Below are positions 12,586 to 58,892 of a stretch of DNA of 64,000 nt, piece after piece (position 1 is the first letter of the stretch; every line of letters starts with the position of its first letter). The notes under the pieces are model-generated. The model worked only from the letters and a program-made list of their open reading frames with translations. It did no database searches and was not told the DNA's origin. The stretch is from Paraglaciecola arctica BSs20135 (GTDB lineage: Bacteria; Pseudomonadota; Gammaproteobacteria; Enterobacterales; Alteromonadaceae), in contig NZ_BAEO01000031.1 of NCBI RefSeq assembly GCF_000314995.1, positions 1 through 64,000 of the forward strand. Direction: 5' to 3'. A program made the translations under genes and the position numbers.

Positions 12586-12828
12586 TTATATCCTTTTCAA
12601 AAACGTCTGCAATTCGAAAATTGTAAAATTAGTTATATCACCTTTTACCAACTTCCTAGCTTGTGATGGTGTTACGCCCAGCGTTTGAACTACATTTTTA
12701 ATAGGTGCAGCCTTAAGGTCTAACTTTTCGTGAATTATAGTCATCAGGTCTGAACATTGCTTATCAATTATTTCTTGTTCTGGAGAATCTGAAACAGCTT
12801 TCAATATGTTGTTGTGTTCTGGGGGCAT
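12586..12828 (-). CDS. Small HTH (XRE/HigA-like) protein
   Basis: 80-aa protein whose C-terminal half (IKNVVQTLGVTPSQARKLVKGDITNFTIFELQTFLKRI) matches the helix-turn-helix of the small XRE group often annotated as antitoxin or HTH_37, where the second helix pair ends in a phrase like FSLDRLMNFL. No partner toxin gene lies on either side. It is likely an orphan DNA-binding regulator or antitoxin remnant. Confidence 0.6.
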   Translation of the reverse strand: MPPEHNNILKAVSDSPEQEIIDKQCSDLMTIIHEKLDLKAAPIKNVVQTLGVTPSQARKLVKGDITNFTIFELQTFLKRI

Positions 12829-13106
12829 TTTGTAAAACTTTTATAGTAAGGCGCTTAACGTGCATTTGATTTTACATCATTTTAAGCCTGCGGCAAAATT
12901 AGGCTTCTCATAAACGAAATTTTTTTTAGCTAATAACAAAAACCATCCATTCAAAACCTATGATTTTGACTTGATATATGGGGTTTTAAGCGTTCATAGC
13001 TAATATGACTATTGTCAGTAGTTTTAAATCAAAAGGTAAAACTTATAAGGGGTTATCTTCTATATTATTGATAATAAGCTGTTGAGTTTGAGGCAACTCA
13101 AAGACA

Positions 13107-13874
13107 CTAATAAAGATTACGGGTCATACTATATCTTTCTCGGCATTTTGTTACTTGATTACGAGCTGCCTCAACAGCCTCAACTTCAGTCGCTTCCAAA
13201 ATACCATCTATTACTCGCATTAAATGACCTCGCATCAATTCGCGAGCTGCCTGAGCATTATGTGCTTTTAAAGCTTCATAAACTTCACGGTGCTCTTCAA
13301 CAGATGGTTTAACGCCACAATCGCGCACTTTTTGATACATACGCCTAGTGAGGACTGATCTTTCTCTCTCATCCCAAAGTCCTTCAATAACCGAAGTAAT
13401 AGCACTATTATTTGTTGCTCTGGCTATAATCATATGGAATTTTTTATCAGCCGCTTCATGAGTCTCTATATCATTATTATTTTCACAAGCCATCTCATTT
13501 AAAGTTTCAGCAAGTTGCGCTAATTCGTCATCAGTTATCATAGATGCCGCTAGAGCAGCAGCTTCACCTTCAAATAATGCTCTTGCTTCAGTTAACTCAA
13601 ATGGACCGACATCTTTATCAGAAAAACGACTTTTCCTTTTGCGACTTTCAATCACATAAACGCCTGAGCCCATACGTACTTCAACAAAACTTTCTAGTTC
13701 AAGAGCAATGACAGCTTCACGGATCGTTGGGCGACTGACACTAAACATCGAAGCTAAGTCTCGTTCTGCAGGTAAACGCATACCCACCGTATATTTTCCC
13801 GATTCGATTAAAGCGACTAATTTTTCAGCCACTTGTTGGTAAAGACGTGGCGTTTTTACAGTTGGTGATCCCAT
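13107..13874 (-). CDS. FadR/UxuR-type GntR regulator
   Basis: 255-aa repressor. The N-terminal winged helix contains VAEKLVALIESGKYTVGMRLPAERDLASMFSVSRPTIREAVIALE, typical of FadR-subfamily GntR proteins. The C-terminal FCD ligand domain carries FHMIIARATNN and an EEHREVYEALKAHN motif whose Glu/His ligands bind a metal. It follows uxuA, 158 bp downstream on the same strand, so the likely effector is an intermediate of hexuronate degradation (fructuronate or mannonate). A candidate operator lies just upstream. Confidence 0.8.
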   Translation of the reverse strand: MGSPTVKTPRLYQQVAEKLVALIESGKYTVGMRLPAERDLASMFSVSRPTIREAVIALELESFVEVRMGSGVYVIESRKRKSRFSDKDVGPFELTEARALFEGEAAALAASMITDDELAQLAETLNEMACENNNDIETHEAADKKFHMIIARATNNSAITSVIEGLWDERERSVLTRRMYQKVRDCGVKPSVEEHREVYEALKAHNAQAARELMRGHLMRVIDGILEATEVEAVEAARNQVTKCRERYSMTRNLY

Positions 13875-13915
13875 AATATTTTATTCACTAGAAGTTAATG
13901 TAATTAACGAACCAC

Positions 13916-13938
13916 ACCAAATATTTGGTAGCTACTAA
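13916..13938. promoter_or_regulatory. Candidate operator for the GntR regulator
   Basis: TTGGTAGCTACTAA (13925-13938) is a dyad with one mismatch and matches the TTGGTA-N2-TACCAA form of UxuR/ExuR-type sites. It overlaps a second perfect palindrome, ACCAAATATTTGGT (13916-13929). The pair lies about 40-65 bp upstream of the regulator start, consistent with autoregulation. Binding is inferred. Confidence 0.45.
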
Positions 13939-14032
13939 TACATATCATATTGGTTACTTTTATAAAAAAACAATAGCTTCCCCAATTATCAATATAAATG
14001 CTATGGAAATGGTAGAAACATATATCGTAAAT

Positions 14033-15229
14033 TTAAGCTACGCTCTTAAGTGCTTTAATAACACCTCTAATTTCGGCTAAACCTTTCAAACGACCGATAC
14101 AAGAATACCCTGGATTTCCCTGTTTATTGATATCGTCTAAAATTTGATGACCATGATCCGGCCTGATAAATATTTCATGACTAGTTTCGCCAACATCACG
14201 GGATTTCTCCTCAGCCAATAAGGCAGAAATCACCCCGACCATATCAACATCGCTTGATAGATGTTCAGCCTCATAAAATGAACGCTGTTCATTTTTATCG
14301 CGACATACGCCACGTAAATGAGCAAAATGAATGCGCGAACCATATACTTTAGCCATTAGCGGCAAATTATTATCCGGGCGGCTGCCGTAGGTCCCTGCAC
14401 ATAAAGTAATACCGTTAGCTGGGCTTGGCAGTGCTGAAAATAGAATATCTAAATCTTCTGACGTACAAATAATCCGTGGTAAACCTAACATGTCCCTTGG
14501 TGGATCATCGGGGTGAATAGCTAATTTAACACCTAATTGTTCCGCTTTAGGTAACACTTGCGCCAAAAATGAGAATAGATTCTTTCTAAGAATATCTTTG
14601 GTTATGTCTTTATAATTTTCCAGCATATTACGAAAATTATCGATAGTGTAACCATCCGTCATTTTCCCAGGTAAACCTGCGATAATATTTTTCGTTAATA
14701 GCGCTTTTTCGTCTTCAGACATTGCTAACAAAGTTAGTTTTGCTTGCCTTAATTCATCATCTGAATAATCGGCTTCAGCATTTTCTCTCTTTAAAATATA
14801 CAGATCAAAAGCCGCAAATTTTTGTTGGTCAAATCTTAGTGCATAACCTCCATTGGGTAATTGAAATTTTAAATCCGTTCGAGTCCAATCAATTACTGGC
14901 ATAAAATTATAACAAATTGTTTTAATGCCACATTTTGCTAAGTTTTCCATTGATGTGATCCAAGCATCTACATAGCGTTGATTATTTTCACGCCCTAACT
15001 TAATATCTTCATGCACAGCAATACTTTCAACAACGGACCAAACTAAAGAGCATTGAGGTGTATTGTCCTTTTCAATTAACTCTTTGTGAGCTTGAATTTG
15101 CTCTACAGGCCACACTTCACCAGTTGGTATAGTGTGTAAAGCACTAACGATATCTGTGGCTCCAGTTTGTCTAATGTCTGCTATTGATACCGGGTCATTA
15201 GGACCAAACCATCTCCAAGCTTCACGCAT
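14033..15229 (-). CDS. uxuA: Mannonate dehydratase
   Basis: 398-aa enzyme that dehydrates D-mannonate to 2-keto-3-deoxygluconate (EC 4.2.1.8) in glucuronate/alginate-type sugar acid catabolism. Family features seen: MREAWRWFGPNDPVSIADIRQTGA at the start, ICYNFMPVIDWTRT, LAIHPDDPPRDMLGLPRI, NGITLCAGTYGSRPDN, HFAHLRGV and FIRPDHGHQ, which carry the metal and substrate ligands. GGAG lies 9 bases upstream of the ATG. The GntR regulator follows on the same strand. Other uxu/kdg genes are not in the window. Confidence 0.95.
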   Translation of the reverse strand: MREAWRWFGPNDPVSIADIRQTGATDIVSALHTIPTGEVWPVEQIQAHKELIEKDNTPQCSLVWSVVESIAVHEDIKLGRENNQRYVDAWITSMENLAKCGIKTICYNFMPVIDWTRTDLKFQLPNGGYALRFDQQKFAAFDLYILKRENAEADYSDDELRQAKLTLLAMSEDEKALLTKNIIAGLPGKMTDGYTIDNFRNMLENYKDITKDILRKNLFSFLAQVLPKAEQLGVKLAIHPDDPPRDMLGLPRIICTSEDLDILFSALPSPANGITLCAGTYGSRPDNNLPLMAKVYGSRIHFAHLRGVCRDKNEQRSFYEAEHLSSDVDMVGVISALLAEEKSRDVGETSHEIFIRPDHGHQILDDINKQGNPGYSCIGRLKGLAEIRGVIKALKSVA

Positions 15230-15989
15230 TATAAAATCTCCATTGTTTGATTATTATTGTCTTTGCCGTTGTTCAACGTATTTGATGTTACGGCCATAAT
15301 TTGTATGTTCTGTTAGCTAACCCAAGAGCTGATTAAACGGCCAGTTTTCTGCTTAATCATGACCTAGTAAGCTTATGGATTGTTTTACCTTGAGCTTCAA
15401 TTACATCATCGTTCTAAAGGCTCGCAATCGACGAAACTCCATAGTCAGATTCGTTCGGCCTTATTTAACCTATTTTCAAATATCAAGTTAAAATAAATAT
15501 AACAGATACACTATTGGTAAGTCCAAAATTAATATCACTTATTTTATAACGATCTTATATAAATAGGGCATCTCATAGACAAAGCGCCAAAAATCAGTTG
15601 GTTAGTTTTCAGCTATTGGGGAAGTTGTTGTTATTTTCTAATCAAAATGAAAAAAAACTGGTAAGGCCGATTACCCGCCATTTATATGGGTCGGAATAGT
15701 AAACTTTTGATAATGTATCAGACTAAGATTGCGATATTCAAGAATGTAGAATTGAAGATTTTATGCTTAGTATTGGTAGCGTTTAGGAGGTTATTCTTAA
15801 TATTTCTCCTAATGTCTCTTAGGTGTTGCAAGTGATAATAATGTGTTCAACCCAATTCGAGCTTCACTTAAGCTATTTTGAAAAACTTTTATTAGTTCGA
15901 ATCATCACAATTTAACAGCGCTCCTAGCTTTCCTAAATAAATTCGTTACCATATTAAGCATATCGTCCTAATTTTGTCATAGCTTTCAT
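15230..15989. other. Intergenic region between uxuA and the antiporter gene
   Basis: About 760 bases separating divergent genes. It must hold the promoters of uxuA (left) and the KefB-like gene (right). A TTGGTAAGTCCAA dyad at 15514-15526 is a weak candidate for a further UxuR-type site. I see no gene. Confidence 0.4.
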
Positions 15990-17570
15990 ATGGAATTCGC
16001 ATTTATTCTCCTAGCATTCATCTGTGGTTTAGGCCTTAAGTTAGTTGGGTTACCTCCTTTAATTGGTTACTTGATTGCTGGCTTTACACTGAATTACCTT
16101 GGTTTTCAGTCATCAGACTCTTTACAGACTATTGCCAATTTAGGCATTACCTTAATGTTGTTTACCATTGGCTTAAAACTCAACGTACGTGATTTATATA
16201 AAAAAGAAGTTTGGCTGGGCAGTATTTGCCACACTGTTATATGGGTAACCTTAGTCAATATATTGTTATTTGCTTTCTCTTGGCTCGGTTTAGCTACTTT
16301 TGCAGACTTAGACTGGTCCACCCAAGCCCTACTGGCTTTTTCATTAAGTTTCAGCAGCACAGTGTGTATTGTAAAAATTCTTGAAGAAAGTGGCGAAATC
16401 AAAACCCGCCATGGCAAATTAGCCATTGGCATATTGATTATGCAGGACATAGTAGCAGTGCTGTTTCTGGTCATAGCTACCGGCAAAGTACCCTCGGTGT
16501 GGGCCTTACTTTTGTTATTATTATTTTTCGCGAAACCTTTGTGGAGTATGGTATTAGAACGTGTGGGACATGGCGAATTACTAATATTGTCGGGTTTTTT
16601 GTTCGCATTGGGAGGGTATGAACTATTTAAGGCGGTAGGAATTAAAGGCGATCTAGGGGCATTGATTGTTGGAATGTTTATAGCTACCCATGTTAAGTCA
16701 TCTGAAATGTCAAAAGCGCTAATGGATTTTAAAGATATTTTTCTGGTTGGTTTCTTCCTTACCATTGGTTTTAGTGCGCTCCCTACCCTAGATTTAATAA
16801 TGACAGCCGTATTACTCTGTCTGTTAATCCCCATCAAATTTATTTTGTTCTTTTCGTTATTTACTTTATTAAAATTAAGGGCGCGCACCAGTTATTTAGC
16901 GAGTTTAGTATTATCTAACTACAGTGAGTTTGGTCTTATTGTTGTGGCATTGGTTGTTAGCCTAGGTTGGCTTAGTGCAGACTGGTTAGTCGTTTTAGCT
17001 TTGGCAGTGTCATTCTCATTTGTGTTAACAGGCTTAGCTTACAAAACCTCGCATAACCAATACACTCACTTTAAAGATAGACTTAAGTCTTTCGAAAGTA
17101 AGCATCGATTACTTGAGGATGTCTACGTACAACCTACAGGTGCTGAAATTATCGTAATTGGACTTGGAAGAGTTGGAAAAGGCGCTTATTCATCTTTAAA
17201 CACTATTGTAGGTAACAAAGTCTGGGGTATGGATGCTGATCGTACTCGTGTACGACTACTTAATAAAATGGGTTATCAGGCCATGGTCGGAGATGGCGAC
17301 GATGTTGATTTATGGGAAAATATGGACCTAACCCAAATACAATTAATCTTATTAGCATTACCTTCAATTGAAGATATCAGCAATATTACTGAACAACTCC
17401 AACATGCAAATTATACAGGAAAAATAGCTTCGATAGCCCGTTACGAAGATGAAATACAACCACTGATTGATGCTGGATCAGATAAAGTATTTAACTTCTT
17501 TACCGAAGCAGGAACAGGTTTTGCTGAAGAAAGTCTGCAACTTTTACCGCAACATTCAAAGCCTCAATAG
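15990..17570 (+). CDS. KefB-like monovalent cation:proton antiporter (CPA2)
   Basis: 526-aa inner-membrane protein. Residues 1-350 form about 11-13 hydrophobic segments of the Na_H_Exchanger fold, with GLPPLIGYLIAGF near the N-terminus and the QDIVAVLFL motif with its transport-site Asp. Residues about 383-510 form a TrkA-N/RCK domain with the dinucleotide-binding EIIVIGLGRVGKG. This layout is that of KefB/KefC/YbaL K+ efflux systems. The C-terminus is shorter than in KefC. Substrate (K+ or Na+) cannot be told from sequence. Confidence 0.85.
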   Translation: MEFAFILLAFICGLGLKLVGLPPLIGYLIAGFTLNYLGFQSSDSLQTIANLGITLMLFTIGLKLNVRDLYKKEVWLGSICHTVIWVTLVNILLFAFSWLGLATFADLDWSTQALLAFSLSFSSTVCIVKILEESGEIKTRHGKLAIGILIMQDIVAVLFLVIATGKVPSVWALLLLLLFFAKPLWSMVLERVGHGELLILSGFLFALGGYELFKAVGIKGDLGALIVGMFIATHVKSSEMSKALMDFKDIFLVGFFLTIGFSALPTLDLIMTAVLLCLLIPIKFILFFSLFTLLKLRARTSYLASLVLSNYSEFGLIVVALVVSLGWLSADWLVVLALAVSFSFVLTGLAYKTSHNQYTHFKDRLKSFESKHRLLEDVYVQPTGAEIIVIGLGRVGKGAYSSLNTIVGNKVWGMDADRTRVRLLNKMGYQAMVGDGDDVDLWENMDLTQIQLILLALPSIEDISNITEQLQHANYTGKIASIARYEDEIQPLIDAGSDKVFNFFTEAGTGFAEESLQLLPQHSKPQ

Positions 17571-19405: not shown

Positions 19406-20839
19406 ATGAGTGAAGCTATTCAAGTTCATCCCGAATACAACTATAAAGTAGTTCGGCAATTTGCGGTGATGACCGTAATATGGGGAATTGTTGGTATGAG
19501 TGTTGGGGTGCTAATTGCAGCTCAACTATATTGGCCAGCACTGAATTTCGATACTCCATGGTTAACTTTCTCTAGATTAAGACCGCTTCATACCAATGCT
19601 GTGATCTTCGCCTTTGGTGGAAGCGCCTTATTTGCGACTTCTTTCTACGTAGTTCAGCGAACCTCGAATGTTAGATTGTTCAGTGACAAACTAGCTTCAT
19701 TTACATTTTGGGGCTGGCAACTGGTCATAATTTTAACAGCGATAACGCTGCCAATGGGTCTGACATCAACCAAAGAATATGGTGAGATGGAATGGCCTAT
19801 TGATATTTTGATTACCATAGTTTGGTTGGCTTATTTGATTAATTTCTTTGGCACAATGGTCATCAGAAAAGTCTCTCACATATATGTGGCCAACTGGTTT
19901 TTTGGGGCATTTATCATAACAGTTGCAGTACTACATATAGCCAACAGTATGGCTATTCCTGTTTCTCTGACCAAGTCTTACTCTATATACGCTGGCGCCG
20001 TTGATGCTATGATCCAATGGTGGTATGGACATAATGCAGTTGGGTTTTTCTTAACCGCTGGCTTCTTAGGTATGATGTATTATTTTGTACCCAAACAAGC
20101 TGGACGACCTGTTTATTCATATCGTTTGTCAGTAGTACATTTTTGGGCGCTAATATCCCTTTATATCTGGGCTGGCCCTCACCACCTTCATTACACTGCC
20201 CTACCAGATTGGACACAGTCTTTAGGTATGGCAATGTCTATTATCCTATTCGTCCCTTCTTGGGGTGGCATGATAAACGGAATTATGACGTTATCGGGTG
20301 CTTGGCATAAGTTGCGAACAGACCCTATTTTACGTTTTCTAGTTGTATCCCTTTCCTTCTACGGTATGTCTACTTTTGAAGGGCCAATGATGGCAATTAA
20401 AACCGTTAATGCATTATCCCATTATACCGATTGGACTATAGGTCATGTACATTCTGGAGCTTTGGGTTGGGTTGCAATGGTATCTATTGGTTCAATTTAC
20501 CACCTTATTCCTATTCTGTTCGATAAGCCCAGAATGTATAGTATTAAATTGATCAACGTGCATTTTTGGTTAGCTACAGTAGGCGTTGTGTTATACATAG
20601 TTGCTATGTGGATGTCAGGTGTTTTACAAGGTTTGATGTGGCGCGCAATTAATGCGGATGGCACCTTAACTTATAGTTTTGTGGAATCTCTTGAGGCTTC
20701 TAAACCATTCTATCTGGTACGTTTCTTCGGTGGTGTTTTAGTTGTAGCTGGCATGTTAATCATGGCTTACAACGTATACAGAACCATTAAAAGTGATAGC
20801 GAAGAATTGGCAATTGAACCAGAAGTACAACCGGCTTAA
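19406..20839 (+). CDS. ccoN: cbb3-type cytochrome c oxidase subunit I
   Basis: 477-aa catalytic subunit with 12 expected membrane helices. The heme/CuB His ligands sit in recognisable motifs: [55 protein letters not shown] and [13 protein letters not shown]. It reduces O2 to water at the end of the microaerobic respiratory chain. First gene of ccoNOQP, with ccoO 12 bp downstream. Confidence 0.97.
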
Positions 20840-48410: not shown

Positions 48411-48833
48411 TTAACTCGTTGGCGATTTGTAACCGTCATGTAGATGCAAGTCTAAGGCGTGCAATAAAGCTGAACGATTAATTGTTCCTAATAAATACCC
48501 ATCGTCATCGACTATTGGATAAACTTTAGGTTTTGCGGTGGTCATTTGTTGCGCCAACTCAATAACTGAAGTGTATGGCTTGATTGCTAACACCTCGGTT
48601 TTCATTATATCTTTAACTTGTGCGACTTGTTCTCTGTAATAACTAGATTCAATCATCTGTACCAGACAATCTTGTTCAGATAAAAAACCTATTACTTTAT
48701 TTTGAATATCAATTACCGGTCCACCCATTTGTTTAGCTTGTAACAATCGCTCAACGGCTTCAGCAACTGTCATTTCACTAGTAAATGTAACTGGACGTAG
48801 ATTCATATGGTCGCTCACTTTTAGAGATTCCAC
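48411..48833 (-). CDS. CBS-domain-pair protein
   Basis: 140-aa protein comprising two CBS domains (residues ~8-60 and ~76-130): AVERLLQAKQMGGPVIDIQNKVIGFLSEQD and VIELAQQMTTAKPKVYPIVDDDGYLLGTINRS. Probably senses adenosyl nucleotides; partner unknown. Confidence 0.88.
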   Translation of the reverse strand: MESLKVSDHMNLRPVTFTSEMTVAEAVERLLQAKQMGGPVIDIQNKVIGFLSEQDCLVQMIESSYYREQVAQVKDIMKTEVLAIKPYTSVIELAQQMTTAKPKVYPIVDDDGYLLGTINRSALLHALDLHLHDGYKSPTS

Positions 48834-49421
48834 TATAACTCCTTGGTTTCTAATAATTATAATTTTATATCGTTTGAGGTAAAGATAGACTTAAGTCACC
48901 ACAATACCTAATTATTTTATTTTAAATTATTAAAATAAATAACTATAAATTACCACCAAAACTAAATTTAAAGACTTTCAGTGTTTTTATCCACACCATT
49001 TAAAGCGTACCAACCAATCTAGATGTAACACTCAGGTGGAATGGTAAAGTTAAATTGAATTCCACACATAACAATAAAGACAAATCTATATTGACCTTGA
49101 CCCGCTCCCTCAATTGAACTTGGTGTTGGTGTTGCCAACAGCCATAACTTTTTCTGCTGATTCGATAGAGATCAAGTTAGCTACTCGTGGTAAAGATTTC
49201 CTGTCCTAATTAATTTTTATTCTGATAGAGCTACAAAACGGGTTTTCAATCAATGATTTAGTAAAAATATATAATACACCTACGGGCAATCGATTAATGG
49301 CCGATATTACTTATGTCTATATCAACATTAAGCAAAATGCTAAAAAAATGCTAATATGTGGCAATCAATATTTAGCTATAAACATATAGTTTTTCGAAGG
49401 GATGGATTTGGATGAAGTGGA
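48834..49421. other. Intergenic region upstream of the chemoreceptor gene
   Basis: About 590 bases. On the minus strand 49110-49205 there is a 31-codon open stretch (SLPRVANLISIESAEKVM and so on) that looks coding-like but matches no family I know and lacks a start. The rest shows no gene and must include the promoters of the CBS gene and of the chemoreceptor. Confidence 0.35.
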
Positions 49422-51302
49422 ATGTTTAACATAAATAGTATCAGGAACAAATTAATACTTATTGGCGTTCTTGTTGCGTTAAGTATGTTAGCAATGATCA
49501 TCTTGCAAAAAAGCATTAATTCATCGCTTAATAATATTAGTCAAACAAATCTGCGTGTCAGTTCCATACAAAGCGGCATGTTAACTCTCAGACGTCATGA
49601 AAAAGATTTCCTAATGCGACTTGACGTGAAATATTTTCAGAAATTTAATGATGAAGTTACGTCCTTAATCTTAAATGTTGAAATTCTCAAAATAGAGCTT
49701 GAACAGCAAGATGATGATGCAAGTAAAGCCTCTAAACTAAAAGACATTCTGATTGACTACAAGAAAAAATTTGAGGCCTTAGTAAGGCTCGAGCAAAATC
49801 TAGGACTTGATGCTAATAGCGGCCTATATGGTAACTTACGTGCAGCAGTTCATCAGGTTGAAAGTAAAATTAATGAGCTCAATAATGATAGGCTATTGGC
49901 CAACTTGCTAATGTTACGCCGCCACGAAAAAGATTTCATGCTGCGGGAAGACTTAAAATATTTTGATAGATTTAATCGAGACTTAGTAGTCTTCATGACG
50001 AGTTTGAACACGGAAAGTATTGCCAATGATACCAAATCAGCAATAACGTCCCTAATGCAAAACTATAGTCAAAGTTTTAAAGGCTTTATAAGTGGCAAAC
50101 AGGCCCTAGGCTTAACTAGTTCGGATGGTGCCTTAGGTGAGCTGAGAGAAACTGTACATCAAACTGAGGGTTTATTAACAACCCTAGCCGAAGAAATCGA
50201 AATTACTTCCATTGAACATCGCGCATTCACTAATTTAATGTCAATTATTATTGCACTGGTCATCACTTTGGTGATTGTTGGTATTGTTATATTACTCTCA
50301 ATCAGTATTTCCAAACCAGTTCGATATCTGTCTGAATTGATGGCAAATACCAGTCGTAATAAGGATCTCACTCTACGTTATGATTATGCGGGTGCCAAAG
50401 AAATTAATGATGTGGGTGATTCCCTCAATGACATGCTCGACAGTTTTGAGAAATCAATATTGGAAGTGTCGCAAGCCACTTATTTACTCAGTTCCTCCTC
50501 CGAAGAGCTCAATGTCATAACGCAAAATAGCAGCGATGGTATAAAGCGTCAGCAAGCTGAAACAGAAAGTGTTGCCACCGCAATTAACGAAATGACGGCA
50601 ACAGTCCTAGAGGTATCTCGTGCGGCAAGTAATGCTGCTACTTCGTCAAATATTGTTGATGAAGAATCACAAAATGGTGCCAATTTAGTGAGAGATACCG
50701 CTAGGCTAATTGGTAATCTTGCTAAACAAGTTATCGATACCGCCATTGAGATGGATCAATTAAGGGAGGAAGCAGAAAATATAAATACCGTAGTACAAGT
50801 AATTGGCAGTATTGCGGAACAAACCAATTTACTCGCCTTAAACGCCGCCATAGAAGCAGCCCGTGCTGGAGAGCAAGGAAGAGGGTTTGCAGTGGTCGCA
50901 GACGAAGTCAGAACTTTAGCCTCCAGAAGTCAGGCCTCTACTTTGGAAATCACGCAAATAATCGAACGGTTGCAGGCCAAGACCCTATCGGCAGTAGCGG
51001 TTATGAAAAGTGGTGAGGAGCTGGCACAAAATTGTGTACGTCAAGCAGGCATCGCCGGTGAAGCAATTGAAAAAATAACCAGTGCGGTATCTACCATCAG
51101 TAGCCAAAACTTTCAAATTGCCAGTGCTGCAGAACAACAGAACTCAGTTGCCGAAGAAATTAATCGAAATATAGAAAATATTAATAATATTGCACAAGAA
51201 TCGACTATTTCAGCCTCGGAAACTTTGCAAACGAGCAGTGCTTTGGCAAAGCTAGCGGTTGATTTAAAAACTATCATTAGCCAGTTTAAATTATCAAATT
51301 AA
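49422..51302 (+). CDS. Methyl-accepting chemotaxis protein with HBM sensor
   Basis: 626 aa. TM1 at about 10-28, a periplasmic domain with two repeats of the LRRHEKDF motif (near residues 52 and 163), which marks the helical bimodular (HBM) sensor, TM2 at about 270-295, HAMP, then the signalling tip ([35 protein letters not shown]). HBM sensors bind organic acids in known cases; the ligand here is unknown. Confidence 0.93.
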
Positions 51303-51816
51303 ATGATTATATTTTGATATCGTTCGGCAAAAGTAAAGAACGATATCAGTCAATTACTATTAACTATTTGCTTGTTCCAATACCGCTTTCTATATTGCAG
51401 CAACCCCACTTGTAAACTTATGCTCAGCAATGGTCTAGGTCACAACTTATATTATGTCCATCTTCTAATATGCCCTTGAGTCCGATTAACTCGCTATGTG
51501 TTTCTTTTTAACGATAAAGAAGGATAAGTTCCTACCCCTAACTTTACCCCTATCTTGAAAGCGATATCTGTATTAAAAGACAACCTTTCCCCTAGGTGGT
51601 ACCCTTACCCTTAAGGGATCCCTATCAGCGACTTCAATCATTTTATCTTATGGTAGTTTTTGAGGGGAATTTACTTGTTTATCAAATAGCGGCGTATTTA
51701 CACTCTTTTGATTATGTACACAAAAGTTTGTAAAACAAACAAAACAAGAAAAAGTACTAACTAACAGCAGCGAACAAAATACAAAGTAAACAATTGATTA
51801 ATAATGATAAACAAAC
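51303..51816. other. Intergenic region left of the island, old sbcB promoter region
   Basis: Contains a 10-bp perfect inverted repeat (GATATCGTTC 51316-51325 / GAACGATATC 51338-51347) just after the chemoreceptor stop. The last ~100 bases presumably contained the original sbcB promoter, since the severed sbcB start codon lies at 51817. Decayed coding-like sequence is possible in between. Confidence 0.45.
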
Positions 51817-51855
51817 ATGAATGAACAACCATCTATCTATTGGCACGATATATAA
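51817..51855 (+). pseudogene. sbcB: Severed 5' end of sbcB
   Basis: ATG then codons for MNEQPSIYWHDI and a stop. This is the exonuclease I N-terminus (compare MNDKKQETIYWHDYETWG at 57453), broken right after the WHD motif. It shows the island integrated inside sbcB and left the original start codon here, 5.6 kb from the gene body. Confidence 0.85.
51833..51848 (+). repeat. Left attachment core (attL)
   Basis: CTATCTATTGGCACGA, identical at 15 of 16 positions to the copy at 57475-57490. Homology ends at both edges. It lies inside the sbcB codons for IYWHD. Confidence 0.8.
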
Positions 51856-51910
51856 CAACACCAATCAAGAGCAATAAAAATAAGGGCAAGCACAAAGCAT
51901 TGATTTTTTG

Positions 51911-51928
51911 GTACGCAAAAAGGTACAA
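51911..51928 (+). repeat. Left arm-type site candidate
   Basis: GTACGCAAAAAGGTACAA, preceded by TTTTTTG. It matches 16 of 18 bases of the motif at 57334-57351 in the same orientation. It lies 62 bp inside the left core; likely an integrase arm-binding site. Confidence 0.55.
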
Positions 51929-52026
51929 CTTACAAAAACTAATGAAGTACATCGCACTCCTAAGCGGCAGTTACAAGTTTGACTCTTGCGGACATCTAAA
52001 ATCAATCATTTCAACATATTGTTAAG

Positions 52027-52044
52027 GGCACTTTAAAAAGTGCC
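52027..52044 (-). terminator. Hairpin downstream of the ABC-3C operon
   Basis: Perfect 8-bp stem GGCACTTT / AAAGTGCC with a 2-base centre, 60-78 bp past the stop of the last operon gene. The T-run after it is poor, so termination is only likely. Confidence 0.45.
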
Positions 52045-52104
52045 ACATATATTGGAAATACTTTAATTATTTCGTTTTTGCCGTGAATTTATAACGTTAT
52101 GAAT

Positions 52105-54444
52105 TCAGCTTATTTCGATTAACTTTTCAGAATATTTATTTTGTAAGTGAATTGAGCTAGCTTGTAAACCACCTCTTAAATACCTATATCTCAAATAATC
52201 AGAAACCTCCTGCTCATGAGTAGAAATTATTACTTGTCTATCTCTTAATTCAATCCTTAACAAATCACTTAAAGAAGCTATATTTATTTCATCCATGCTT
52301 TGTGTAGGATCATCTATTAGTATAAATGCAGTCTGTGCATATTTACGATTCAATGAAAGAAAAAAGGCCAGAGTTAACGCCGCTACTTGACCACTACTCA
52401 TAGATAGCACTGCGTCATATGAAGAACCATCAGCAGTAAAGAAATGTAAATTTTTAGTTTTATTGGTACTAGACTCTTCAGTATCAATAAATAGTCCTAA
52501 CCCTCTTTGATAGTTCTGAATTAATCTTCCACTGTAAATATGGAATAATGACTCAACTTGACCGATGGTTTCACTTGAATACGTATTTTTCACTGTATTA
52601 GTTGTTTCAATAAGTTTGGTTAATTTACTACCAAATTTATCTAAATTAGCTTGAGCTTTTTTATGTGCTTTTACTATTAATTTCTGGCTGTTTAGCTCTG
52701 AATTTATTTTTAAATTATATTGCGAGTTAATATATAAGCTCTTATTTTGTACATCAGCAATATTAATACTTTTCAGTTCATTAATTGTTTTAAAACATTC
52801 GTTGAAAAATCCCATTACACCGCTTTGTAAAGAATCACTTTCAACCTTTCGTAAAGATAAAACCTTAACCTTAATCTCTTTTAACGTCTGTTCTTTTATT
52901 TGATCGTCAGAGGAGTATTCAATAGGTAAAGATATTCCATAAGCGGTTAGTTTTTGAGTTATTAGATCTATATTACTTTTCTTTAATTTGTTCTCTTCTA
53001 ATTCTTCTAGTAAAGATAAATTGAAATTAAGTTCCAGTGATTTCAACTGAGTAGTTAATTTTTCACCCTCTGCCTTTAATAAAGATTTTAATGCATCTAA
53101 ACACACTTTATACGACATATCGTGACGCTCTATAAACTCAGTTATATTTTTGGATTTGAGTTCTAGCGCATCTATTAATAACTGGTTTGTAGTATAATCA
53201 AATCCACATAATAAGCATTCAACCTCATGTTCTTGCTGTTTTTCTATAATAGATAATCTAAGTTGATCTATTTCTGTTAGTTTAGCAATATGTCCATCGG
53301 TGGTACTTTTTAACCTAATCCTTTCCTCTACTTTAGTTTTTATATTAGTTATCAAATCATTAGATACTAATGTTAATTTAACTAATTGCTCTAGAGTTAC
53401 GGTTTCTTCACTAGTTTTAAGGAGTTTTATTTGACTCTTATAAGAATCAATAGTGCTCTTATCTTTTACCAAACCGTCATGTTTACTAAAGTGATTACCT
53501 AAATAAATCGCTAGAGTGAATTCAGGTTTAGCTACTAATTCATTATATTGGTTATTATTAAGTCGTAAGTCTATTTCATCCACTTGAGCCTTGGCATTAT
53601 CTAAAAGAACAACTTGCTTGAGTAACTCTTCATAGTCTTCTTTTTTTGTACTAATAACAGGAACTTCTTTATCCCATTGTGGGATAGTAATAGAGGTAGA
53701 TATTCTTTTGTAATCGACTTGCGGACTATCTTTTTTAATTGCTAAAGTTAAAGAGTCTATTTGTCCATTTACAATACTAATGTCACCTTCTAATGCTTTC
53801 ATTCGTTTTTTTCTGCTTACTTCAAGGTCTCGTAATCCAACCAATTTTTCATTGACCTCATCTAATTTAATTAAATGTGATATTTGATCGAAACGTGAAG
53901 TTTTGTTGTTTGTGTCAGGTACAATAACTGAATTATTATCTTGAGAAATATAGTTTAATACGGAAAAATTACTTAAAAAGTTAGGTCCAAAAACATTTTT
54001 AATGTATGACTGTTCATCTTCTATTAAATTGGCGCTTTCTACATCATCAAAACTGGATAATTCATATAGCTTAAAAATATCAAAATTTAGTGGTTGGTGA
54101 TTTTTTTTATCATTCAATTCCTTTAAATTAGCCATCTTCATTAAACAAATAGTTTCATCGCCACAATAAAATTCTGCCTTTATCTTGATACTTGATTTAG
54201 AGTTATTATTCCAATATAGGTTTCTTTCATAATGCTTCTTTTTGTTCCCTTTAAGTGAATTAAATAAAGCTATTATTCTAGGAATTTCCCCACACAGTAG
54301 TAATTGTAAAGCGTCAAAAACAGAAGTTTTACCAAAACCATTAGGTCCGTCTAATACTGTTAAGTCATTATCAAAAGACTCACTAAATTCTTCAAATACT
54401 TTGAAGCTATTAATATCTAATGTTCTTAACTTCCATTTACTCAT
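52105..54444 (-). CDS. ABC-3C/Lamassu-like SMC-type ATPase
   Basis: 779 aa from the ATG at 54444 (GGAG 7 bases upstream; overlaps the preceding stop by 8 bp). Walker A GPNGFGKTS at residues 33-41; a long coiled coil interrupted by a zinc-hook-like CLLC at about residue 410; ABC signature LSMSSGQVAALTLAFFL; Walker B AFILIDDPTQSMDE near residue 706; D/H-loop ISTHEQE. This is the RecF/SMC-like ATPase of three-component ABC systems thought to sense phage DNA structures. It is the third gene of the operon. Confidence 0.75.
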   Translation of the reverse strand: MSKWKLRTLDINSFKVFEEFSESFDNDLTVLDGPNGFGKTSVFDALQLLLCGEIPRIIALFNSLKGNKKKHYERNLYWNNNSKSSIKIKAEFYCGDETICLMKMANLKELNDKKNHQPLNFDIFKLYELSSFDDVESANLIEDEQSYIKNVFGPNFLSNFSVLNYISQDNNSVIVPDTNNKTSRFDQISHLIKLDEVNEKLVGLRDLEVSRKKRMKALEGDISIVNGQIDSLTLAIKKDSPQVDYKRISTSITIPQWDKEVPVISTKKEDYEELLKQVVLLDNAKAQVDEIDLRLNNNQYNELVAKPEFTLAIYLGNHFSKHDGLVKDKSTIDSYKSQIKLLKTSEETVTLEQLVKLTLVSNDLITNIKTKVEERIRLKSTTDGHIAKLTEIDQLRLSIIEKQQEHEVECLLCGFDYTTNQLLIDALELKSKNITEFIERHDMSYKVCLDALKSLLKAEGEKLTTQLKSLELNFNLSLLEELEENKLKKSNIDLITQKLTAYGISLPIEYSSDDQIKEQTLKEIKVKVLSLRKVESDSLQSGVMGFFNECFKTINELKSINIADVQNKSLYINSQYNLKINSELNSQKLIVKAHKKAQANLDKFGSKLTKLIETTNTVKNTYSSETIGQVESLFHIYSGRLIQNYQRGLGLFIDTEESSTNKTKNLHFFTADGSSYDAVLSMSSGQVAALTLAFFLSLNRKYAQTAFILIDDPTQSMDEINIASLSDLLRIELRDRQVIISTHEQEVSDYLRYRYLRGGLQASSIHLQNKYSEKLIEIS

Positions 54445-55093
54445 TTTCAAACTCCTTTAGTATTTCGCTTTGATCGGCCTTATCATTAATGATTTTCGTT
54501 AAATTTTCATCAAACGTAACTAAATCATTAGCTAAAAGGCTTTCTTTCAGCATTACATCAATACTTGGCATTTTTATTTCATTAACAGGCACGTGCAAAA
54601 ATGGTATTTTAATAAAGAACCTAGCAGCAAAACTGTATAAAGATGGATAATTAGGATATTTTTTGTAAGTGATAAATAAGTTTCTATCTAAAATTACCTT
54701 TCCAAGATCGCTTATTGATTTATTTGCTAATAAATTTACTTCTTCATCTGAATAGTAGAGTACGTATTTTTTGAAATAATATGGGTCTTCTTCAATAGAA
54801 AATATTTTTTGTTCGTGAGTATTGAAGTCACCTAAATTTTTCAGATTTAATAAAATTATTAAATCTGAATTCCGTTCAAATGCAGGTTCACTTTTGATTT
54901 CAATCGGTGTGATATCTTTGATTGTATTATTATAATAATCGACCTCTTGTAAGCTATCCGTTTCATACACAATCAAGAACCGTTTGTTATTTTCTTTAAT
55001 TTTTTTATAAAAGCTAAAACCCTCTATATTTTCAATAAAAACAAAACCAGAGTCATCAATAGTTGCGGCCTCTTTCAGTAATCCATTAATCAA
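54437..55093 (-). CDS. ABC-3C middle component
   Basis: 218-aa protein between the nuclease-like and ATPase genes, coupled to the latter by an 8-bp overlap. Small middle-component proteins of this size occur in ABC-3C/Lamassu operons (LmuC-like). I see a helical C-terminus and LYSFAARFFIKIPFLHVPVNEIKMPS, with no enzymatic motif. The start is a TTG at 55093 with GGAGA 6-7 bases upstream. Assignment rests mainly on position. Confidence 0.6.
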   Translation of the reverse strand: MINGLLKEAATIDDSGFVFIENIEGFSFYKKIKENNKRFLIVYETDSLQEVDYYNNTIKDITPIEIKSEPAFERNSDLIILLNLKNLGDFNTHEQKIFSIEEDPYYFKKYVLYYSDEEVNLLANKSISDLGKVILDRNLFITYKKYPNYPSLYSFAARFFIKIPFLHVPVNEIKMPSIDVMLKESLLANDLVTFDENLTKIINDKADQSEILKEFENE

Positions 55094-55115
55094 TTTATCT
55101 CTCCTTTAGCTGTCT

Positions 55116-56384
55116 CTACTGAAACAAATCTAATATTTTTAGCTTTAATAATGTTATTTTTAATGTTATAAATTCACTATTATTAACATCATCAATACAG
55201 TCTCCATTATGAGTCGCTTTAGGTTTACTAAATTCACTCACTTTAAAAGAAGACTCATTGATCGCCACGATTAAGTTATCAAATTCAAATAAAATATTTA
55301 ATAATGTTGTATTACTCCTTAAATCAGATAAGTGTTTATCCAATTTATTAACTTGCACTTTTTTAGACATGCCATTAAGTTCGATACATGATGGTATATA
55401 TTTATCGTACTTCGTATTTAAATAATGAGGTAAGTTGTTATTTGATATAAATGAAGGCAATTCATTTATAATATTTAAATACCTTTCTAAAACTACTTTT
55501 CCAATATCACTTTCTATAGAAAAATTAGTTGGGTCTAAAGAAATATATAACCTTTCTAATAATCGGCTATCTAAATTTGACATTATTTTTTTGCAAGTGG
55601 ACAAGTGAACTAACTCATCCTCTAATTCGTCTGAGTTTTCTTCCTCATAAACACCTGCAAATTCATCAATAATCTGTATGAACTGACTTTTAAAGCGAAA
55701 TAACAAATGTTTTTTATCTTGAAAGTCTAAAACAACGGATGCTAGACAGTCGATGATCTCAGAGAACAGAATAGGACTAGAGTCGGTTGATTCGTATTGA
55801 GTATATTTTTGATTTTGATTTAAGGCATGTGCAAAATTGACCCGTTGAGCCAATAGAGAATTTAGTTTGTCAAACTTATGACTTACTAATTCAAGAGAAT
55901 TGATGAGTGAATTCTTATCTAAATAATTACTTATAATCCCCTTTAACACTCCGTCTATTTCATCAGGTGTGACAAACAGCTTACCGTCATGATACTTAAA
56001 TAAACTTACGGTTTGTCCATTATGAGAATGATTAGTAAAATCATCTATATCTACTGACACATGAAAAAATCTTAGTGTATCAATATTAAAATGATCACTT
56101 ACAACTTCTGCAGCTTGGTCTAATGCTTTCTTATAACTAGAACGATACTTTGATTTAGTTGATTTCACTTGGTGAATAGATAAAGCAGTCTTATCATTAA
56201 AAATGACAAAGTCATCTAAATGTTCAACTTTAAGCGAATAAGAATAACTTAACTTGTCATCTATGAGCAATTGTATTGCACGATACAAAGCAACTTTACC
56301 TTGGTATATAAAACCACTCCAAGATGCCACGGCAACGCTTTTAGATATTTCGGCTGAGACTGATATATTTTCTTTATTTTGCAT
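55116..56384 (-). CDS. ABC-3C effector component, nuclease-like N-terminus
   Basis: 422 aa. Residues 22-29 are WSGFIYQG, a signature seen at the start of ABC-3C C-terminal-domain proteins and Cap4/DUF4297-type nucleases. It is followed by KVEHLDDFVIF (53-62) and SIHQVKSTKS (69-78). The D/E...QxK pattern fits a PD-(D/E)xK restriction fold. The C-terminal half is helical with no motif I recognise. It is the first gene of the operon and the likely effector that cleaves DNA when the ATPase is triggered. Function is inferred from the family. Confidence 0.65.
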   Translation of the reverse strand: MQNKENISVSAEISKSVAVASWSGFIYQGKVALYRAIQLLIDDKLSYSYSLKVEHLDDFVIFNDKTALSIHQVKSTKSKYRSSYKKALDQAAEVVSDHFNIDTLRFFHVSVDIDDFTNHSHNGQTVSLFKYHDGKLFVTPDEIDGVLKGIISNYLDKNSLINSLELVSHKFDKLNSLLAQRVNFAHALNQNQKYTQYESTDSSPILFSEIIDCLASVVLDFQDKKHLLFRFKSQFIQIIDEFAGVYEEENSDELEDELVHLSTCKKIMSNLDSRLLERLYISLDPTNFSIESDIGKVVLERYLNIINELPSFISNNNLPHYLNTKYDKYIPSCIELNGMSKKVQVNKLDKHLSDLRSNTTLLNILFEFDNLIVAINESSFKVSEFSKPKATHNGDCIDDVNNSEFITLKITLLKLKILDLFQ

Positions 56385-56488
56385 AGAGTTAAATCCCTTT
56401 TATTTAACTCTCTTATATCAAACTGCCTAGTAAATAAGTACTTATAATTTTATATTAAGTTTTCTAAACTAAATCTAAGTACAGTTAT

Positions 56489-57085
56489 TTACAGTACTCC
56501 AAGTGAAGGACTAAAAGCACCTACAGAAATACGTTCTTTCTGAATACTGATTTGCCATGTATGGATACGCGTAATAAATTCTATTCCCTTGTAGAGAATG
56601 CCTTTTAGTTTTTGCGTAATGAGACCATCGAACCAACTGGTTTTTATTAAACCCGTTGTTTTGTTAATTTCCATTTCGTAGTAGGGACGAATTGCCTGAG
56701 ATTTTCGTTTACAGAACACTCCCCCCATTAGCTTCGTATATATAGCCCAGTTACCCGAATCTGCGGCCTTATGGAGCTCTGTAAGCGCTTCGTCTTCGCT
56801 TGGAGGTTTTCTAAGTCTTCGAAGTTCTCGCCACACTGTGACTGATACACCGCCTATTTGTTGAAACTGTCTAATTCCCCAACAACTCGCCCATGCTTCT
56901 ACTCGTTGGGCTGCTAAAATTGGGTTTTCGCCATACACGCCTTTATCTAAGTTCGCACCATTGATGCTTTTGCATACGTATTTGGCAATATAACCAGTCG
57001 CAGAGCCTTTTTTTTGGTCTATGTCGGCAAACTTAGTAAGATTATCTCTAGTTACCTGCTTTTCTCTTTCACCAGTTAGGTAACT
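56489..57085 (-). pseudogene. Fragment of phage gpA-type replication protein
   Basis: Open frame of 198 codons without its own proper start. It includes KGSATGYIAKYVCKSING, YGENPILAAQRVEAWASCWGIRQFQQIGG and VTVWRELRRLR, all hallmarks of the P2-gpA family of rolling-circle replication endonucleases (PF05840). The upstream part with the catalytic tyrosines is missing: the frame is joined directly to the integrase remnant. The C-terminus reaches a plausible native end. It is a relic of the phage or satellite that formed the island. Confidence 0.75.
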
Positions 57086-57298
57086 CTAGAACCTTACTTC
57101 TAGCGTGATCAATCCTTAAATCTGGGTGCCGCCCAAATTTTAATCGAACCTCTTTGTTGTTGAAGCGATAACGATACCGCCATGTTATAGTGCCATTTTT
57201 GAAAGCGCGCGCACTTAGGCCATCGCGGTCAGAAATCACAATTTCATTTTCTTGTGAATTACTTAGATACTTTTTAAGTTTGTATCAGTTAATGACAT
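57069..57298 (-). pseudogene. Truncated, frameshifted tyrosine integrase (N-terminal DUF4102)
   Basis: Starts at the ATG at 57298 with MSLTDTNLK. A missing A in a five-A run near 57271-57277 breaks the frame, which resumes as KYLSNSQENEIVISDRDGLSARAFKNG, TITWRYRYRFNNKEVRLKFG and RHPDLRIDHARSKVLEL. This matches the DUF4102 arm-binding domain of P4-type integrases (DGDGL, YRYRFNGK, LG.YP..SL..AR). The catalytic domain is absent: the sequence runs into the gpA fragment. Located beside the right attachment site, as expected for the island's integrase. Confidence 0.8.
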
Positions 57299-57333
57299 AA
57301 TTTACTTTTGGTACACACGTTGAATTAACATTT

Positions 57334-57351
57334 GTACGCATATAGGTACAA
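57334..57351 (+). repeat. Right arm-type site candidate
   Basis: GTACGCATATAGGTACAA, 16 of 18 matches to the left arm site. A related half (TTTTGGTACACACG) is at 57306-57319. It lies between the integrase start and the right core; likely an integrase arm site and possibly part of its promoter. Confidence 0.55.
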
Positions 57352-57378
57352 ATTATTAATAAATTAGAAAGAACTTGT

Positions 57379-57456
57379 ATGAACAAAGATAAACAATTGA
57401 AACTGAAGCAAGCCATAACAATCATTGCCTTTACGGCACTTAATGAACTTCAATGA
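57379..57456 (+). CDS. 25-aa leader peptide overlapping sbcB start
   Basis: MNKDKQLKLKQAITIIAFTA then LNELQ and TGA. Its stop overlaps the sbcB start as ATGA, a translational-coupling arrangement. An AGAAAG lies 7 bases before its ATG, while sbcB itself has no strong Shine-Dalgarno. It lies within the island, so the island may drive sbcB with its own promoter and leader. Confidence 0.4.
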   Translation: MNKDKQLKLKQAITIIAFTALNELQ

Positions 57457-58892
57457 ACGATAAAAAACAAGAGACTATCTACTGGCACGACTACGAAACT
57501 TGGGGGGCTAATCCTCAAAAAGATTTCCCTTGTCAGTTTGCCGGAATACGCACCGATCTAGACTTAAACATTATTAGTGAACCTCTGATGATTTTCAGCC
57601 AAATTGCTAATGATTGTTTGCCGGTTCCTCAAGCGTGTTTAGTTACAGGTATTACTCCACAACGTTCTTTAAAGGAAGGACTCCTAGAAAGAGATTTTAT
57701 CGCTAAAATCCTTAAAGAGTTCTCACAGCCCAATACCTGTGTTGCCGGCTTCAACAATATTCGTTTTGATGATGAAATTACTCGCTACACTTTATATCGA
57801 AACTTTTATGATCCTTATGCAAGGGAATGGCAACATGGTAATAGCCGTTGGGACATTATCGACTTAGCTCGAGCTTGTTACGCGCTTAGGCCTGAAGGCA
57901 TCAATTGGCCATTAAATGAAGCAGGATTACCCAGCTTTAAGTTGCAAGATTTAACTAAAGCCAACGATATTCAGCATCAAGACGCCCATGATGCAATGTC
58001 CGACGTGTATGCAACCATTGCAGTGGCTAAATTGATCAAGGAACGTCAACCCAAGTTATTTGATTATTTGTTTAGCCTACGTGATAAAAGAAAAGTACTT
58101 GAACAAATCGATTATCAACAACTAACACCTTTAGTGCATATTTCCTCTAAGATCCCTTCAGTCCATGGTTGTTGTACTTGGATAGTGCCTATAGCAATGC
58201 ACCCGACCAATAAAAATGCGGTTATTGTTCTTAATTTAGCACTAGATCCTAGTCCACTTTTTACACTTTCAGCTGACCAAATAAGACAGAAGTTATACAC
58301 CCCTAATGCAATGTTAGGGGAAAATGAACAGCGCTTGCCGATCAAGCTTATCCATATAAATAAATGTCCTGTGTTGGCTCCGGCTAAGACACTCAGCGCC
58401 GAAAATGCCGAACGTTTGGGAATTGATAGGCAACTTTGTCTTCAAAACTTGCAGAAAATTAAAGCGAATCTGCAGAGTCTTGAAAAATTGCAGCAGGTAT
58501 ACATCCAAACCGAACAACGGGATCCTCTGGATGCAGAGCATGCTTTATATTCGGGCGGCTTTTTTTCGTCCAACGATAAAGAACTTATGAAAAAAGTAAC
58601 TCATTCTGATTTGCAGGGACTGACTGAGCTTTCTTTACCTTTTGAGGACGAACGTTTAAATACATTGTTGTTTAGATACAGAGCACGGAATGCTCCACAA
58701 TCGTTATCAGAGACAGAAGTTGAGAGATGGCAACGTTATCGACATTTTAAATTTTATGACAATGAATCACCTGCTAGCATTAAAATGCCAGAATATTTAA
58801 TGCAACTCGAACAATTAAGCAGTGAATATGCTCGTAACCCAGAAAAGTTAGCCGTATTAAAAAATCTTTACAATTATGCGAAAGGTTTATAA
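57453..58892 (+). CDS. sbcB: Exodeoxyribonuclease I
   Basis: 479-aa 3'-5' ssDNA exonuclease of mismatch repair and recombination. DEDDh motifs: WHDYETWG (DxE), CVAGFNNIRFDDEITRYTLYRNFYDPY and HDAMSDVYAT. The SH3-like and C-terminal domains are complete (KLVHINKCPVLA-type and NALFSGGF-type segments are present). The first 13 codons derive from the island and differ from the original start left at 51817, so the gene was rebuilt by integration and is apparently functional. Confidence 0.95.
   Translation: MNDKKQETIYWHDYETWGANPQKDFPCQFAGIRTDLDLNIISEPLMIFSQIANDCLPVPQACLVTGITPQRSLKEGLLERDFIAKILKEFSQPNTCVAGFNNIRFDDEITRYTLYRNFYDPYAREWQHGNSRWDIIDLARACYALRPEGINWPLNEAGLPSFKLQDLTKANDIQHQDAHDAMSDVYATIAVAKLIKERQPKLFDYLFSLRDKRKVLEQIDYQQLTPLVHISSKIPSVHGCCTWIVPIAMHPTNKNAVIVLNLALDPSPLFTLSADQIRQKLYTPNAMLGENEQRLPIKLIHINKCPVLAPAKTLSAENAERLGIDRQLCLQNLQKIKANLQSLEKLQQVYIQTEQRDPLDAEHALYSGGFFSSNDKELMKKVTHSDLQGLTELSLPFEDERLNTLLFRYRARNAPQSLSETEVERWQRYRHFKFYDNESPASIKMPEYLMQLEQLSSEYARNPEKLAVLKNLYNYAKGL
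57475..57490 (+). repeat. Right attachment core (attR)
   Basis: CTATCTACTGGCACGA, one base different from attL. It lies in the sbcB codons for IYWHD and marks where island-derived and original sbcB sequence join. Confidence 0.8.

Follow-up and report, generated by a model that had tools for sequence, protein, structure and literature searches.

A probable P2-like prophage remnant with a Lamassu/ABC-3C operon at an apparently reused sbcB attachment site in Paraglaciecola arctica

The 5′ end of sbcB, the gene for exonuclease I (ExoI), is an attachment site of enterobacterial phages. Passages of PMC4159516 report that Sf101, like phage 2851, integrates there with a 13-bp core, and that the integrase of HK544 is 99% identical to that of Sf101. 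The phage attachment site (attP) of the coliphage HK544 is annotated as type 2851, and both HK544 and the Shigella phage Sf101 use the W/F-H-D-Y codons of sbcB. Here we analyse an insertion at these codons in Paraglaciecola arctica BSs20135, within the first 64,000 nucleotides of contig NZ_BAEO01000031.1 (assembly GCF_000314995.1), a stretch that we call the window. A first-pass annotation, made by a model from the letters alone, had described a defence island integrated into sbcB and knew of no well-described example of this target; phages 2851 and Sf101 (passages of PMC4159516) and the attP of HK544, which use the same codons, are such examples.

The first codons of sbcB are split by a 5.6-kb insertion with a 16-bp repeat at both ends, a piece of an integrase, a piece of the P2-type replication gene gpA and an open three-gene operon, followed by an open sbcB; beyond its left end lies what profile matches suggest is the degraded relic of a second integrase. 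We consider it probable that the insertion is a decayed P2-like prophage with a defence operon, and that it is the second of two successive integrations at the W-H-D-Y-E codons of sbcB. Its features are as follows.

51817 to 51855, plus strand: head 1, a displaced sbcB start (MNEQPSIYWHDI) with a stop, probably from an older element (direct reading; integrase relic upstream on the expected strand).
51833 to 51848, plus strand: left copy of the attachment core (pattern counts in window and genome).
52105 to 54450, minus strand: LmuB-type Rad50/SMC-like ATPase, first ATG a few codons in (LmuB E 3e-60; SMC_N 7.7e-18; PDB Rad50 chains E 1.3e-10).
54437 to 55093, minus strand: middle component MComp1 (PF20289 E 3.2e-17; without a PADLOC match).
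55116 to 56384, minus strand: LmuA-type effector with a Cap4 nuclease domain and CTD1 (PF20276 E 2.4e-46; PF14130 E 1.5e-6; LmuA E 5.4e-22).
56489 to 57085, minus strand: C-terminal part of a P2-type gpA, a replication nickase (phrog_91 E 1.5e-54, profile positions 447-622 of 852).
57069 to 57298, minus strand: integrase N-terminus, arm-binding domain only, with the frame also broken near the start (Arm-DNA-bind_3; hidden Markov model (HMM) E 4.7e-21; ten best foreign matches beside sbcB).
57299 to 57452, plus strand: element-borne sbcB leader (185 bp from the integrase start codon at 57298 to the W codon, TGG, of the core; 124-360 bp in the 62 loci described below).
57453 to 57476, plus strand: head 2, element-supplied first codons of sbcB (direct reading; compare the head in the attP of HK544).
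57475 to 57490, plus strand: right copy of the attachment core, in the codons of IYWHD (pattern counts in window and genome).
57453 to 58892, plus strand: sbcB, exonuclease I, open frame intact (RNase_T and Exonuc_X-T_C domains).

The core repeat, CTATCTAYTGGCACGA, differs at a single position between its two copies, and the repeat-bracketed, site-specific integration in the first sbcB codons proposed at first reading is confirmed, with 15 of 16 positions identical. The window contains exactly two copies at no more than one mismatch, where 100 shuffles gave no match, and the 5.96-Mb genome contains the same two, two more at exactly two mismatches and no third at one mismatch or fewer; the pattern read backwards matches the genome once. 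The 16-bp core is not a common repeat in this genome, which was one of the checks that the first-pass annotation had put forward against itself. An insertion bounded by such a core within the W/F-H-D-Y codons is characteristic of sbcB-targeting (2851-type) elements, and the 13 bp of the HK544 attP, TTTCACGATTACG, compare with TGGCACGACTACG in the window. The first-pass annotation had also proposed a search for other core-flanked sbcB islands with an integrase, and these exist: copies of the same codons flank independent elements in the genomes G109, G166, G193 and G220, weakly in G045, and also in Pseudoalteromonas sp. FUC4, Photobacterium lutimaris and Shewanella oncorhynchi. With only 16 bp to go on, the repeat might be ascribed to chance or to a local duplication of sbcB DNA, but this origin is very improbable given that the repeat is unique in the genome, that the same codons flank independent elements elsewhere and that a dedicated integrase family resides at sbcB. 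Separately, an isolated CTCTGGCACGATTGTAATAC in the leader of genome G021 (L033), about 200-250 bp before the sbcB core, resembles the leftover core of a lost element.

The integrase piece belongs to this dedicated family. It is about 70 residues long (Arm-DNA-bind_3 match E 3.9e-11), lacks the catalytic part and is divergent from the adjoining sbcB. Since the integrase is incomplete we class the element as decayed, and with a fragment alone left the island should no longer move by itself. The tyrosine-integrase remnant noted at the right junction on first reading is real, but the supposedly single piece is a C-terminal part of a P2-type gpA joined to an integrase N-terminus. Across 246 genomes of the family, its ten best foreign matches all adjoin sbcB; of the 29 foreign loci checked, 13 do. 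When an intact relative served as query, 21 order-level loci reached E 4.6e-61 or better, and 19 of these are next to sbcB; of the nine that follow, only one is, namely L155 (E 1.9e-51, truncated integrase). In the GTDB genome collection 103 relatives were confirmed, of which 80 loci were fetched, in Pseudoalteromonas, Shewanella, Vibrio, Photobacterium, Moritella, Aeromonas, Endozoicomonadaceae, Orbaceae, enterobacteria and others. The start of sbcB adjoins the integrase in 62 of these 80 loci, always divergently and at the spacing given above. No sbcB was present in the 1.8 kb read at 16 of the remaining 18; the other two are L185, which has an sbcB start at a contig edge and makes a 63rd case, and L241, whose integrase is partial.

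In a tree of 100 integrases the sbcB label requires five changes, against 21.8 in shuffles, and none of 500 shuffles was as low. The label is clustered but does not form one clade, with at least three of the five changes forced by well-supported branches, so use of the site has been gained or lost more than once. This tree omits L166, L169, L236 and L241 as well as the partial or stop-bearing L149, L151, L152, L155 and L158, and L232 and L235, entered with shifted frames (27 and 22 stops as X), have meaningless positions in it. The HK544 integrase, which starts 215 bp from its core, finds its nine best matches in the analysed set among sbcB-side integrases (62-72% identity), and is 37% identical to the G060 member over 392 amino acids and 42% identical to the window piece over 52 residues. 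The motif GGTAC is not borne out as a general arm-type motif, occurring in 14 of 62 leaders (23%) and in 18% of background windows; its two copies near each window end and four in the HK544 att region are not used as evidence.

On its sbcB side the insertion supplies both a start codon and a reading frame, as do gene-restoring 5′-end integrators (dusA, SXT/prfC). The intact gene starts at 57453 and reads MNDKKQETIYWHDYETWG, whereas head 1 is left as a 12-codon stub. That the element side brings a new start and leader, as the first-pass annotation had it, applies well beyond this genome: in all 62 loci the sbcB frame stays open beyond the core, into the element side upstream of it, with an in-frame ATG in 56 (only ATG starts were counted, and the other six would need another start codon). 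In the free phage HK544 (L271:1080-1400) the reverse complement of attP has an ATG and then DKQPTFLFHDY, an sbcB-like head, so a replacement start travels on the phage. The codons HDYE encode the catalytic motif of ExoI. The element-borne leader would act as a new sbcB promoter; a promoter consensus scan gave 22 sites against 32.1 in shuffles, that is, fewer than shuffles, and a terminator scan likewise gave no more than shuffles.

The phage character of the insertion is suggested by the gpA piece, a 198-codon open frame joined directly to the integrase N-terminus, with the front of gpA absent. It has matches in 322 phage records, all below 60% identity, and the DNA of the integrase-gpA region has no match in phages. 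A C-terminal gpA and the order integrase, gpA, variable defence slot are what a P2-like prophage would show. Since gpA alone is not proof, we looked for complete relatives. In L163, L164 and L170 a relative of gpA is found no more than about 10 kb from the sbcB integrase, the order in L170 being integrase, transcriptional regulator, two excisionase-like proteins, methyltransferase, exonuclease, gpA and a small transcriptional regulator, which we take to be Ogr. The portal family TIGR01540 was sought at 50 of 63 loci (13 on short contigs were omitted), of which 49 genomes were searched; in six, all Pseudoalteromonas (L163, L164, L168, L170, L171 and L173), it lies on the same contig as gpA, 12-21 kb from the sbcB integrase and facing gpA. 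The genome of L165 has a portal and a gpA piece on another contig and is not among the six. In Pseudoalteromonas sp. FUC4 about 35.8 kb separates the right core copy from a left one, which has a displaced head of its own. Ten open reading frames (ORFs) scanned in this interval match portal, terminase, scaffold, major head, tail terminator, sheath, tape measure, two baseplate families and a regulator. Small variable genes occupy the interval between gpA and portal in sbcB-side Pseudoalteromonas prophages, and a passage of PMC9122126 places the P2 defence hotspot between gpA and gpQ. An independent Lamassu-type cargo after gpA occurs in G117 (L064/L270, G117:C64), where gpA ends at about 776 and a Cap4-LmuA-like ORF (128-631) follows about 150 bp later; this ORF is stopped after 168 codons near the contig edge, and the arrangement is as in the window.

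The cargo operon is open, on the minus strand, and begins about 105 bp beyond the gpA piece. Its three genes correspond to a Lamassu/ABC-3C system, namely an LmuB-type SMC-like ATPase (with a CLLCG hook and Walker motifs, read by eye), a middle component and an LmuA-type effector with a nuclease domain, and the anti-phage character proposed at first reading holds in that ABC-3C/Lamassu models match all three. The PADLOC models, LmuC included, gave no match to the middle component. In the relevant part of the review PMC10586767, ABC-3C is placed inside the Lamassu superfamily, and the Cap4 domain and zinc hook are given as features of many of its members. By analogy with Lamassu, LmuB would detect foreign DNA and the Cap4 nuclease would be triggered. 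The LmuA-like protein has matches in 57 plasmid records, all below 60% identity, and none in phages or in the PDB search. For the insertion as a whole, 'rump of a P2-like prophage' is a better label than 'defence island'. Other occupants of the site may also carry defence genes. PADLOC was applied to 147 ORFs from 54 of the 62 sbcB loci (up to the three longest of at least 200 amino acids per locus). Among the best 25 of 278 and 285 families are reverse transcriptases (RT_II-A and RT_UG31), HEC-06, AriA, type I/II methyltransferases, HamB and LmuB. We claim no enrichment, since the comparison has no control set, the family listings carry no count of the loci hit, and part of the ORFs may come from outside the island. 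At L128 (G116), positions 10021-17038 upstream of sbcB encode a radical-SAM protein, a thymidylate-kinase-like protein (by eye) and a WYL protein, a stretch reminiscent of prokaryotic viperin loci.

To the left of head 1 the DNA differs from that of other Paraglaciecola species, and the following features lie there.

48411 to 48833, minus strand: CBS-domain gene, the native sbcB neighbour in the genus (same gene before the sbcB core in congeners).
48950 to 51816, no strand: putative older insertion, from the element that would have docked first; its left border is approximate (the DNA between CBS gene and sbcB in congeners shows no homology to it, and an integrase relic lies at the right end).
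49422 to 51302, plus strand: methyl-accepting chemotaxis protein (MCP) gene within the putative older insertion (HAMP and MCPsignal).
51497 to 51647, minus strand: putative relic, from the N-terminus of an sbcB-type integrase that would be older, interrupted by a stop and a change of frame (HMM ranks 2 and 3; tblastn).

The CBS-domain gene lies 244-352 bp from the sbcB core in 11 of 21 congeners, which have an empty site, and 0.8-9.5 kb from it in six; it was not found in the stretch read of four. DNA homology to G018, G011, G002 and G003 extends past the CBS gene and ends at about 48,937-48,955. No congener has a chemoreceptor gene beside sbcB (0 of 21; the upstream stretch was 13.9-19.8 kb in 20 and 61 bases in G019), and the expectation of the first-pass annotation that relatives lacking the island would have this gene directly before sbcB fails, the CBS-domain gene being the usual neighbour. 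The chemoreceptor gene may be cargo of the older element. The relic provides ranks 2 and 3 of the integrase HMM across the six frames of the window (E 0.0072 and 3.2), after the piece at 57072-57284; tblastn reaches 1.8e-6, with six of ten distinct integrase queries at 5e-4 or below and a seventh at 0.004. In congeners the interval from the CBS gene to sbcB gave no match to the integrase HMM. Since the relic lies just upstream, head 1 is most likely a start brought by an earlier element, though the signal is modest, and not the displaced native start for which it had been taken at first. Stacked elements of this kind occur elsewhere. G166 (L122) has two sbcB-type integrase pieces separated by about 3.6 kb, both with an sbcB head of their own, and in Photobacterium lutimaris (L236) two pieces, at 10082-11038 and 20376-20762, lie 10.3 kb apart with sbcB heads near-identical over more than 34 bp.

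Given these features, we propose the following course of events. First, an older element with a dedicated tyrosine integrase would have inserted, bringing head 1. Next, the attP of a P2-like prophage, whose integrase was of the same family, would have recombined with the reconstituted site, an exchange of attP with the bacterial site (attB) within the codons being what established site-specific recombination would predict. The attP of the prophage would have brought a leader, a start codon and first codons, so that sbcB is open behind head 2 and head 1 is stranded. One deletion would have joined the integrase N-terminus to the C-terminal part of gpA, and another would have removed everything between the defence cargo and the left end. 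The survivor would be the three-gene Lamassu/ABC-3C operon (LmuB, MComp1, LmuA), in the slot after gpA where the phage usually carries its defence genes.

Several observations weigh against this account, some of them on the phage nature of the insertion and others on the older element. No structural phage gene (portal, capsid or tail) is found in the island, which is why we file it as a remnant and not as a prophage; there is also no further long ORF in the island beyond those described, and no phage gene between the cargo and the left repeat. The gpA of the window is 57-66% identical to that of nine family loci and 36-48% identical to that of three Pseudoalteromonas sbcB prophages, while these nine family loci have at best a distant integrase (four of nine, 22-27%), and among the places listed gpA is beside sbcB in none of 68 gpA-matching family genomes (67 besides this one). 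With the gpA of the window closer to that of elements elsewhere, integrase and gpA could come from two elements, through mosaicism or fusion. Accordingly, the insertion could be a defence island of the ordinary kind, with an sbcB-type integrase but no phage origin, to which a gpA piece from a second element was fused by deletion or nested insertion. Most sampled sbcB elements have no P2-type portal nearby (it is present in six of 49), and the sbcB island of G109 (Cognaticolwellia sediminilitoris, L204) has LmuA, LmuB and LmuC matches but no gpA match in the stretch read. We nevertheless hold such an island unlikely, because integrase, gpA and variable genes follow one another as they do in P2-like sbcB prophages, sharing a strand as far as gpA, and because gpA followed directly by Cap4-LmuA recurs in G117.

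Further points of the same kind concern the attachment core and the older element. A second core copy was found in only two of the 62 collection loci, for which mostly 10 kb was read, and is clear in four of 18 family stretches (up to 20 kb), with one weak case; this is partly because many elements or contigs extend past the stretch read. The older relic is short and degraded (HMM E 0.0072, or 0.035 with another database size), and a stray, near-noise tblastn match (0.007) lies elsewhere in the same 10 kb, outside the known piece, which slightly lowers our confidence in a decayed prophage that docked second. Neither the left end of the older element nor an MCP-bearing relative was found, and no convincing third head lies left of the chemoreceptor at up to four mismatches in 14. 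Head 1 could therefore be the native sbcB start of the species, displaced once, with the chemoreceptor region an unrelated upstream insertion: head 1 (NEQPSIYWHD) resembles the heads of several congeners, such as NQPSIYWHD in G012, no third core was found to its left, and the HMM score of the relic is modest. To this history, too, we give a low probability. On the expected strand, the relic pieces lie 170-320 bp upstream of head 1. The head 1 leader has only 26-30-base matches in four of 21 congeners and does not resemble the native leader found in three close relatives (G018, G002 and G011), and the NQPSI pattern also occurs in element-supplied heads. A decayed P2-like prophage that docked second remains our preferred explanation.

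The sbcB site is not new, but judging from the loci compared here it is an integration hotspot common to Gammaproteobacteria. No report of sbcB islands outside enterobacteria was found in literature titles and abstracts, a search whose coverage left out most subscription papers. What was an attachment site of enterobacterial phages becomes a hotspot across the class, and defence genes may be found by reading the DNA next to sbcB. The locus also illustrates how little beyond its defence genes may survive of a prophage and how the site may be reused, leaving stacked sbcB stubs. With each element bringing its own sbcB leader, control of host exonuclease I by mobile elements becomes directly testable. 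We add a broader and rather doubtful proposal, namely that the catalytic sbcB codons serve as a class-wide dock to which related integrases, enterobacterial ones as well as those of marine Alteromonadales, return and stack, each occupant replacing the promoter and first codons of exonuclease I, such that the resident element, and not the host, may set the ExoI level, in keeping with its cargo. If so, the occupants would include possible responders to DNA ends or single strands (Lamassu, reverse transcriptases, restriction). A hint in this direction comes from a passage of PMC9122126, in which the RT-SLATT defence pair makes SbcB essential in E. coli H120.

Several described systems can be set beside this locus. 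It resembles the Lamassu/ABC-3C systems, as presented in part of PMC10586767, in its LmuB-like SMC ATPase, middle component and Cap4-nuclease effector with CTD1, and differs in that its middle component is an MComp1 unrecognised as LmuC by PADLOC. The islands at dusA and SXT at prfC (passages of PMC8409611) involve other genes and elements, and at dusA the promoter has been measured, whereas here it is postulated. With the P2-like prophages (Peduoviridae), as covered in part of PMC9122126, the insertion shares the C-terminus of gpA, defence genes directly after it and an integrase on its far side, but it would have lost its structural genes and most of its integrase and gpA, and its attachment site is sbcB. 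Phages 2851, Sf101 and HK544 of Escherichia and Shigella share with it the same codons, the same integrase family and an attP with an sbcB-like head; they are lambdoid and enterobacterial, whereas the element described here belongs to a marine genus, appears to be what is left of a P2-like prophage, carries a Lamassu operon and was probably the second to dock at the site.

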